Below the pieces are notes generated by a model. It was not told the DNA's origin and did not search any database. It was given only the letters and a program-made list of their open reading frames with translations. From assembly GCF_000238275.3 (NCBI RefSeq), contig NZ_AHCF03000003.1:372001-436000 (forward strand): a stretch of DNA of 64,000 nucleotides. The letters are read 5' to 3'. Positions 56,576-59,549 of this stretch are shown piece by piece. Both the position numbers and the translations under genes were made by a program. Source of the stretch: Pseudoalteromonas undina. GTDB lineage: Bacteria; Pseudomonadota; Gammaproteobacteria; Enterobacterales; Alteromonadaceae. Within the stretch, counting starts at the first letter, position 1. Every line of letters starts with the position of its first letter.

Positions 56576-57400
56576 TTGAATAAACAAATACGCTGTTATG
56601 TTGCTTTATTTATTAGTGTTTTGCTTTGTGCATGCTCGTCTCGCCATGTTCCCGCTCCTGTAAGTAGTTTAAATAATAATATTAATGACTATCCTTCACG
56701 GATTAATATTAACGGTGGTAAGTACACGGTACAAAAAGGCGATACACTTTATTCGATTGCTTTTAGTGCTGGAAAAGATTTCAGAGAACTTGCAAAAAAT
56801 AATTCAATTCCATCACCTTACACTATTGTTCCTGGTCAGGTTGTATCCCTTTTAGAACCAAGTAGGTCAAGGGTTACACAAAAAAAGTATAAAAAGAAAG
56901 CTGTTAAAAAGTCATCTCATTTACAAAAAAGTAACAGAAAATTAAAGAAAGAGCTTGATAAGCCGAAAAAACGTAGGTATGTTCAAAAACAAGCTAACCA
57001 AAAAATTAGTCAGTCTCAAGGTTCTTCAACTAAAAAGTTGAGTTGGTTTTGGCCTGCTAAAGGTAAAATAACAAAACGCTTTTCTAACAAGGAAAATGGT
57101 TATAAAGGCCTACAGATTGCTAATAGAAAGGGTACTGCCGTACTCGCCGCTGCAAAAGGAACAGTAGTTTACGCGGGTAGTGCACTTAGAGGTTACGGTA
57201 ATTTAATTATATTGAAACATAATGATGATTACCTAAGTGCTTATGCACATAACTCAACGTTACTTGTGAAAGAAAAGCAAATAGTGAAGGCGGGACAAAA
57301 AATAGCAGAAATTGGTAATTCAGAGTCTTCAGTAACGGCACTTCGTTTTGAAATTCGTTATCGAGGAAAAGCTGTTAACCCTGCTAAGTACCTACCCTGA
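56576..57400 (+). CDS. nlpD: Murein hydrolase activator NlpD
   Basis: An outer-membrane lipoprotein that activates the amidase AmiC in cell separation. The lipobox is LCAC, followed by a LysM domain (YTVQKGDTLYSIAFSAGKDFRELAKNN...IVPGQVV), a basic linker and a degenerate LytM/M23 domain (GLQIANRKGTAVLAAAKGTVVYAGSALRGYGNLIILKH). The catalytic zinc ligands are missing, as in other NlpD. The start is TTG 56576. In gammaproteobacteria rpoS promoters usually lie inside nlpD. Confidence 0.93.
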   Translation: MNKQIRCYVALFISVLLCACSSRHVPAPVSSLNNNINDYPSRININGGKYTVQKGDTLYSIAFSAGKDFRELAKNNSIPSPYTIVPGQVVSLLEPSRSRVTQKKYKKKAVKKSSHLQKSNRKLKKELDKPKKRRYVQKQANQKISQSQGSSTKKLSWFWPAKGKITKRFSNKENGYKGLQIANRKGTAVLAAAKGTVVYAGSALRGYGNLIILKHNDDYLSAYAHNSTLLVKEKQIVKAGQKIAEIGNSESSVTALRFEIRYRGKAVNPAKYLP

Positions 57401-57410
57401 ACTGAAGGTG

Positions 57411-57570
57411 TTGATTGACTGTTCTGGAGAAGGCTCATGGCTAATACAGCAAAAGCTAATAAAACGACTACAGACCTTAATCATAAAGTTATTGATAGCT
57501 TGCTCAGGAGAAGTCTTATGGCTGATGTAGCAAAAGCTGAGAAAACCCCCACTGATGATAAGTTTGACGA
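57411..57570 (+). repeat. Imperfect tandem duplication carrying ribosome site and start codon of rpoS
   Basis: Two copies spaced 81 bases apart (ATG 57437 and 57518). Each has GGAGAAG, then ATGGCT-AT-AGCAAAAGCT and AAAAC. The starts are in the same frame. Confidence 0.8.
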
Positions 57571-58057
57571 CTCTAAAATAGAGGAGACAACGAAGTTACT
57601 TGATGACGTGGAAGATGAAGATGTATTTGTAAAAGAAGAAGTCACTAAAAACCTCGACGCCACCCAATTATACTTAGGCGAGATTGGTTTTTCCCCTCTA
57701 TTAAGTGCAGAAGAAGAAGTGTTTTTTGCACGAAAATCGCTTAAAGGCTGTGAAGCCTCCCGAAAACGCATGATCGAAAGTAACTTACGCTTAGTTGTGA
57801 AAATTGCGCGTAGGTACAACAATCGTGGGCTTGCTCTACTTGATTTAATTGAAGAAGGTAATCTAGGGCTGATCCGAGCTGTTGAAAAGTTTGATCCTGA
57901 ACGGGGTTTTCGATTTTCTACTTATGCCACATGGTGGATACGCCAAACCATTGAACGGGCAATAATGAATCAAACCCGTACTATTCGTTTGCCTATTCAT
58001 GTTGTTAAAGAGCTTAACGTTTATTTACGTACGAATCATGTACTGGTGGTGGAGTGA
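57437..58057 (+). pseudogene. rpoS: RNA polymerase sigma factor RpoS, truncated by deletion
   Basis: The sequence is normal RpoS from region 1.2 to region 2.4: [67 protein letters not shown] (the core-binding and -10 recognition part) and [18 protein letters not shown]. After codon 199 (T, 58031-58033) it leaves the family and adds seven foreign residues, NHVLVVE, encoded by the pncC sequence read in another frame. Regions 3 and 4 (the -35 contact) are absent, about 130 residues missing. The 206-residue product could bind core polymerase but should not drive normal promoters. Two possible starts exist (57437 and 57518). Confidence 0.92.
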
Positions 58058-58437
58058 GTTATTCGCTTACCGATACCCCCGGAAGTTCAGCATATATTGA
58101 CCGTGCATTTGTTACTTATAGCAATAACGCCAAGCAAGAATTACTCAATGTGAAGCATGCTACCCTCGAGCAATTTGGCGCAGTAAGCGAACAAACAGTC
58201 ATTGAGATGGCTGCAGGCGCCTGTAAGGCTGCAAATGCTGATATTGGCATTGCTATTTCAGGAATTGCAGGTCCAGGTGGTGCTACTGAGGGCAAACCGG
58301 TAGGGCTCGTGTGGTTTGGACTGCAAATTAACGGTAAACACTGGACGTTTGAACAAGTATTTAATGGTGATAGGGCGCAAGTTAGGCTGCAAGCTATTGT
58401 ATTTTCTTTAAAAAATATAATAGAGAAGATAAAATAA
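58033..58437 (+). pseudogene. pncC: Nicotinamide-nucleotide amidase PncC (CinA C-terminal type), 5'-truncated
   Basis: In the frame starting at 58033 the sequence reads [26 protein letters not shown] and on through FVTYSN, VSEQTVIEMAAGA and ISGIAGPGGATEGKPVGLVWF, a clear PncC match from the catalytic-serine motif to the normal C-terminus. The first 30 or so residues are missing. No start codon precedes the ESCTGG motif after the in-frame TAA at 58015. The first usable start is GTG 58054, overlapping the truncated rpoS stop as GTGA. That product would have 127 residues without the ESC motif and is probably inactive. Confidence 0.9.
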
Positions 58438-58505: not shown

Positions 58506-59549
58506 ATGAACGATAACAAACAAAAAGCGTTGGACGCAGCTTTATCACAAATTGAACGTCAATTTGGTAAAGGCTCAATCATGAAATTGGGTGACAATAA
58601 AGCGTTAAACATTGACGCTGTATCAACAGGCTCGCTAGGTATTGATATTGCCTTAGGCATAGGCGGCTTGCCGATGGGGCGTATTGTTGAAGTATATGGC
58701 CCAGAGTCATCAGGTAAAACAACGCTAACATTGCAAGTTATCGCTGAAGCTCAAAAAGAAGGTAAAACCTGTGCCTTTGTTGATGCTGAGCATGCTCTTG
58801 ATCCAATTTATGCACAAAAACTAGGTGTTAACATTGATGAGTTACTGGTATCTCAACCAGATACGGGTGAGCAAGCACTGGAAATTTGTGACATGTTAGT
58901 GCGTTCAAGCGCGGTTGATGTAGTGATTGTCGATTCGGTTGCAGCATTGACACCAAAAGCTGAGATTGAAGGCGACATGGGTGATTCACACATGGGCCTA
59001 CAAGCACGTTTAATGTCGCAAGCATTACGTAAGCTTACAGGTAACATTAAGCGTTCAAACACACTATGTATTTTCATTAACCAAATCCGTATGAAAATTG
59101 GTGTAATGTTTGGTAACCCTGAAACAACAACTGGTGGTAATGCCCTGAAATTTTACGCCTCTGTACGTATTGATATTCGCCGTATTGGTTCGGTAAAAGA
59201 AGGCGATGAAGTTGTTGGTAATGAAACGCGCGTTAAAATTGTGAAAAACAAAGTTGCACCGCCGTTCAAACAAGCTGAATTTATCATTATGTATGGCGAA
59301 GGTATTTCTAAGCAGGGCGAGCTGATTGATTTAGGTGTTAAGCACAAAATTGTTGAAAAAGCGGGTGCTTGGTACAGTTACAATGGCAACAAAGTTGGCC
59401 AAGGTAAGTCTAATTCGATTAAGTTCCTTAAAGAAAATCCTGAAATTGCAGATGAAATTGAAGGTAAATTACGAGAGATGCTATTGCTAAAAGCAACGGT
59501 TGAGCCAGAAGATGGCGAAGACGTATTAGGTGATGAAGGCGACCTTTAA
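58506..59549 (+). CDS. recA: Recombinase RecA
   Basis: The central strand-exchange and SOS coprotease protein. Walker A is GPESSGKTT, Walker B region VIVDSVAAL, with the L1/L2 loops [16 protein letters not shown] and [28 protein letters not shown], and an acidic C-terminal tail. At 347 residues the length is standard. ATG 58506 has GGAGAAG directly upstream; TTG 58494 is in frame but weak. The gene and its SOS promoter are untouched by the deletion immediately upstream. Confidence 0.98.

Follow-up and report, generated by a model that had tools for sequence, protein, structure and literature searches.

The closest described parallels to the locus studied here are two deletions in Escherichia coli. 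In strain eMS57, a spontaneous 21-kb deletion containing rpoS and mutS arose during laboratory evolution, and either a knock-out of rpoS alone or the 21-kb deletion restored the growth of the parent to 80% of that of eMS57 (PMC6389913). The isolate from patient 11 became a mutator when a deletion of 17,491 bp took out mutS and reached as far as rpoS; the mutator is proposed there to be a side effect of selection that acted on adjacent genes (PMC7845604). Two further cases are related in part. A constructed mutS deletion mutant of Pseudoalteromonas lipolytica is a mutator, with growth on ciprofloxacin or rifampicin increased about 100-fold (PMC10634453), and an ancestral Escherich strain from culture collections combines a mismatch-repair defect with an rpoS mutation, both attributed to storage (PMC5793043). 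The mutS region, which includes rpoS in many bacteria, is described as unusually variable in a study of Vibrio (PMC5296598). The mutS allele in PMC3771984 is an 8-bp deletion.

The genome studied here (G000) resembles eMS57 in that rpoS and mutS were lost in one deletion, and the mutation rate of eMS57 rose. The two deletions differ in size and setting: 21 kb and 21 genes were lost from an engineered, genome-reduced laboratory strain, whereas 3.2 kb and three genes are affected in G000. The available account of the eMS57 deletion (PMC6389913) makes no mention of pncC, which G000 lost. The patient 11 isolate is a closer match in that a non-engineered strain lost both genes spontaneously in one step; its deletion is larger, its setting is clinical and its mutation rate was measured. 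The P. lipolytica mutant belongs to the same genus and also has no mutS, but it was made on purpose, and rpoS has no occurrence in the available text of PMC10634453. In the ancestral Escherich strain, a mismatch-repair defect likewise stands together with an rpoS defect, but separate small mutations (in mutL, mutT, rpoS and others) are responsible, among many accumulated changes. In the literature searched, which left most subscription journals outside its scope, no report of an rpoS-mutS-pncC deletion in Pseudoalteromonas was found. The case is an unusually compact new instance of an already known type of event.

The junction and the missing genes

The window is the whole 64,000-nucleotide stretch analysed, and corresponds to C3:372,001-436,000 of the 4.03-Mb genome of G000, which is assembled in four contigs with a completeness score of 100%. 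The features around the junction are listed in Table 1 in window coordinates.

Table 1. Features of the nlpD-rpoS-pncC-recA region of G000
Feature	Position	Strand	Remark
nlpD-like murein hydrolase activator gene, full-length left flank	56582..57400	+	
rpoS remnant, 198 native codons + 2 nt (350 codons in G068 and G096)	57437..58032	+	sigma-70 regions 1.2 and 2 kept, 3 and 4 gone
deletion junction, blunt	58032..58033	.	3,204-3,209 bp missing relative to four relatives; ends share no base
out-of-frame read-through from rpoS, NHVLVVE then TGA (58055-58057)	58033..58057	+	206-aa product
pncC remnant, native codons 29-162 and stop	58033..58437	+	sole CinA/PncC match in the genome
recA, intact right flank	58506..59549	+	347 codons, as in G068 and G096

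The segment 54600-59549 of the window was compared with 108 Pseudoalteromonas genomes, with one genome per species. The four nearest relatives are G068, G096, G101 and G092, and the identities of the block to the left of the junction are 97, 96, 90 and 87%, respectively; the next best genome shows 79% over a shorter block. The alignment to each of the four relatives falls into two blocks, joined at 58032/58033 (the left block of G092 is 3 nt short), and the gaps between the blocks are 3205 bp in G068, 3204 bp in G096 and 3209 bp in both G101 and G092. In G068 and G096, the gap was read and contains the 3' part of the 350-codon rpoS, mutS (861 codons, opposite strand) and codons 1-28 of the 162-codon pncC. 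The MutS copy of G068 matches TIGR01070 with 1210.8 bits. In G101 and G092, MutS (870 codons in each), RpoS (356 codons) and PncC (190 codons) are all encoded by full-length open frames. Loss of these genes across the clade was thus ruled out, as the four nearest relatives keep rpoS, mutS and pncC. In these relatives rpoS and mutS directly adjoin and converge on each other, and therefore 3.2 kb suffices for a double loss. According to the two-block alignment and the genome-wide searches described below, one contiguous deletion inactivates both rpoS and mutS.

The two ends of the deletion share no base, and a deletion at an exact repeat was ruled out; illegitimate recombination is therefore favoured over recombination at an exact repeat. 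The repeat search covered the segment 57900-58200 of the window itself, so that the parental sequence may contain imperfect repeats near the ends.

At the junction, codon 199 of rpoS still encodes Thr by chance, and the rpoS frame then continues out of frame to its stop. The pncC sequence resumes at codon 29 (ESCTGGG...) in a different frame. In this frame a stop occurs at 58015, and the earliest start codon is GTG (58054). This GTG overlaps the stop of the rpoS frame and is located downstream of the ESCTGG motif. Since the frames differ and the pncC part has no start codon upstream, no fusion protein is formed, and an RpoS-PncC protein fusion was ruled out. The original prediction, which was made from the window alone, had RpoS normal to codon 199 and PncC from 58033 at the ESCTGG motif, and the alignment to the relatives agrees with both points; its description of rpoS as fused to pncC does not hold at the level of translation.

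The deleted genes were searched for elsewhere in the genome. No MutS_V domain was detected in the G000 genome, with 11 of 14 control genomes positive, and the MutS protein of G068 used as a query found no match in G000, with matches in G068, G096 and G097. The 3,205 deleted bases of G068 also gave no match in the G000 genome, in a search that had no positive control of its own. As for RpoS, none of the 12 sigma-70 region-2 matches in the G000 genome reaches the RpoS cut-off. The product of the rpoS remnant scores 296 bits against NCBIfam NF004207 (PRK05657.1), for which the cut-off is 394, and covers residues 15-185 of the 329-residue profile; only the regions given as kept in Table 1 are assigned to it by Pfam. 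The pncC remnant, the only CinA/PncC match in G000, has lost 28 N-terminal codons and has no start before ESCTGG.

These results correspond well with the original prediction of a single deletion with its junction near 58030-58033, and 3,204-3,209 bp are missing from G000 relative to the four relatives. The end of rpoS, mutS and the start of pncC were removed as had been supposed; to this we add that pncC itself is lost, as no spare copy is present. A comparison with close Pseudoalteromonas genomes and a search for a second mutS or rpoS had been proposed as checks: the locus is intact in the four relatives, and neither gene was found across the four-contig assembly.

The genotype RpoS-, MutS-, PncC- is well supported. 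Judging from the functions of the genes, G000 should have no working sigma-S, as the stump retains the core-binding and -10 part and lacks regions 3 and 4, and should have neither MutS-dependent mismatch repair nor PncC. MutL (a 616-codon frame) and MutH are both encoded in the genome. As MutL and MutH are present and MutS was not found, the MutHLS pathway is without its mismatch sensor. If the assembly is right, rapid drift and poor survival of starvation are expected of the strain, and stress sensitivity is predicted. The G000 genome stands for its species in a reference collection.

Apart from the deletion, the start of rpoS is duplicated at 57405-57555. Two 70-nt copies, 74% identical, lie 81 nt apart, and each contains GGAGAAG and ATG GCT, with candidate ATGs at 57437 and 57518. 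The RpoS proteins encoded by G068 and G096 show the in-frame duplication as well.

Mutational footprint and age of the deletion

The footprint of the mutS loss was examined in 524 kb of G000 (the window and 460 kb to its right) against G068 and G096, and 396,438 sites were aligned in all three genomes. An initial 87-kb comparison lies within this sample. The mean identity to G000 is 93.8% for G068 and 95.6% for G096, and thus G068 was treated as the outgroup.

Private substitutions number 7,509 in G000 and 7,760 in G096 (fewer in G000; binomial p = 0.043), and the transition/transversion ratios are 2.38 and 2.28, respectively (Fisher p = 0.26). When all three genomes are counted under a single rule, the clean-flanked short indels private to each number 19 in G000, 22 in G096 and 21 in G068, and those in homopolymer runs of at least 5 number 7, 7 and 5 in the same order. 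The length of runs of at least 5 is privately changed in 5 of 1,134 runs in G000, 4 of 1,126 in G096 and 2 of 1,123 in G068; when shorter runs are included, the counts are 8, 5 and 4 (8 versus 5, p = 0.58). An earlier count of clean indels (G000 22, G096 43, G068 64), in which the rule was stricter for G000, was set aside. Over about 0.4 Mb, therefore, the signature of a long-standing mutator, an excess of homopolymer indels and of transitions, was not seen.

The counts of broken ORFs lean slightly the other way. In pairwise comparisons, 6 of 322 ORFs are broken in G000 versus 3 of 321 in G096, and 10 of 309 in G000 versus 3 of 310 in G068. In a further 400 kb compared pairwise with G068 only, the counts are 12 of 216 in G000 versus 5 of 217 in G068. 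Of these, 10 in G000 and all 5 in G068 are located in the first 4% or the last 7% of the ORF, and 2 versus 0 are left. Because such counts depend mostly on where ORFs are taken to start and end, which is uncertain, frameshifts were recounted only inside ORFs whose length is similar in the other two genomes. Frame-shifting short indels in these ORFs number 3 in G000, 1 in G096 and 2 in G068. The ORF length is unchanged by the one in G096, by both in G068 and by one of the three in G000, and the gene-breaking indels are thus 2, 0 and 0. One of the two is a single extra base midway through putP, a sodium/proline symporter gene (TIGR02121, 511 codons); this insertion is private to G000 and is located at about 572,568 of C3 (position 200568 of the compared stretch); G068 and G096 have the full 511 codons. 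The other changes T7 to T6 early in a 150-codon ORF, and is of the type expected without mismatch repair. Another private one-base difference in G000, in the early part of an ORF of 305 codons, is ambiguous in class.

According to these results, a brief mutator phase is possible, and the 2 versus 0 versus 0 gene-breaking frameshifts are at most a hint of it; the leans in broken ORFs likewise hint against reading the sample as free of any footprint. The original prediction had called the strain a natural mutator. The genotype does predict one, and the mutator phenotype is a prediction from the sequence in our account as well; a long history as a mutator finds no counterpart in homopolymer indels or transitions. 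Separately, the loss of PutP could be a further adaptive change or a mutator-derived one.

Private changes in the gene remnants were also counted. The rpoS stump shows 3 synonymous and no nonsynonymous changes and the pncC remnant shows 7 synonymous and 2 nonsynonymous changes, and these counts fit a recent loss.

For a rough age, rates were borrowed from E. coli. After the loss of mutS, eMS57 acquired a mutation every 4.3 generations (PMC6389913), and the share of single-nucleotide changes among mutations is given as 38-57% in PMC7845604. Guided by this share, we assumed that about half of the mutations are indels, and the indel filter used in the estimate keeps 19 of 40 indels. With these rough values, an excess of ten indels in the sample would need about two thousand generations. 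As the mutational footprint is nearly absent, the deletion should be recent, with an age of no more than a few thousand generations if the rates of E. coli are valid here, on the basis of about 10% of the genome and one genome per species. A deletion so young may therefore have arisen during isolation or culture. The slight footprint thus sets a rough upper age, and suggests that the RpoS-/MutS- genome represents a fresh and perhaps culture-derived event.

Origin of the double loss

We consider that a single recent, blunt deletion of about 3.2 kb, in which the loss of rpoS was selected and mutS hitch-hiked, explains the locus best, with a probability of roughly 60%. Illegitimate recombination would have removed the DNA from rpoS codon 199 through the convergent mutS to pncC codon 28, probably recently and perhaps during isolation or culture. 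By analogy with E. coli, selection would have favoured the loss of rpoS, with faster growth at the cost of stress protection, and mutS would have been lost as a passenger because it directly adjoins rpoS in this clade. That selection acted, and that rpoS was the gene on which it acted, are suggested by the same precedent. The locus would then illustrate in compact form how selection on an adjacent gene can produce mutators as a side effect: the loss of rpoS can be advantageous, and mutS lies beside rpoS.

If selection acted, the mutator allele itself could have been its target, with mutS loss raising the supply of useful mutations and rpoS as the passenger. This is unlikely in our view. In its favour, 80 ± 5% of a P. 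lipolytica co-culture consisted of the mutS deletion mutant after 72 h with the wild type, and the mutant gave many colony variants (PMC10634453). Such selection should leave accumulated mutations, but only two gene-breaking frameshifts were found in about 0.4 Mb and private indels are not raised; moreover, in the eMS57 case the removal of rpoS alone gave much of the gain (PMC6389913). An old loss, in which the species would be a stable hypermutator lineage that has long done without RpoS and MutS, is highly improbable. The genotype and the slightly larger number of broken ORFs in G000 agree with it, but the branch substitutions (7,509 versus 7,760), the transition/transversion ratio and the indel counts are like those of relatives with mutS, and the rpoS stump shows no relaxed constraint.

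A recent deletion with blunt, repeat-free ends is also what a random break would give. A neutral or mildly harmful deletion may have become fixed when isolation or storage imposed a single-colony bottleneck, neither gene being under selection; we regard this as an outside chance, since random deletions that hit rpoS are rare unless selected, and the loss of rpoS and mutator alleles are recurrent in stored strains according to PMC5793043. The deletion would be only apparent if the assembler had dropped 3.2 kb from an intact locus. We judge such an artefact quite improbable: the junction is free of N, repeat and contig end and is located about 430 kb into a 2.49-Mb contig, the genome is scored as 100% complete, and the missing single-copy DNA is present on no other contig.

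A wider and rather doubtful proposal concerns the gene order. In this clade, the convergent, end-to-end arrangement of rpoS and mutS may let a deletion of a few kb switch a protected and faithful cell into a fast-growing and hypermutable one, much more easily than in E. coli, in which the two cases found needed 17-21 kb; the genome would then come from an environmental isolate caught just after the switch.

Distribution in the genus and family

MutS_V is present in 106 of the 108 genomes of the genus (G000 counted), and the exceptions are G000 and G097. G097 was ruled out as a second Pseudoalteromonas without MutS, as its mutS runs into a contig end at residue 582. In the family, MutS_V is present in 391 of 393 genomes, and the exceptions are G000 and G423. 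The latter belongs to another genus, is assembled in 70 contigs, and shows neither MutS_V nor a match to the MutS protein; it is either without MutS or affected by an assembly gap.

The RpoS equivalog cut-off is passed by 107 of the 108 genomes of the genus, and G000 is the sole failure. The 107 genomes include three with an irregular rpoS, namely G080 (split frame), G047 (partial match) and G034 (TAG inside the match). In G080 (L007 2279-3281, minus strand), rpoS is split over two frames near codon 125 and adjoins an open mutS frame; this break is apparently independent of that in G000, or is a sequencing error. The RpoS match of G034 (C10:394227-395147) contains an internal TAG, and that of G047 (C53:86903-87727) stops early; each is a possible rpoS defect.
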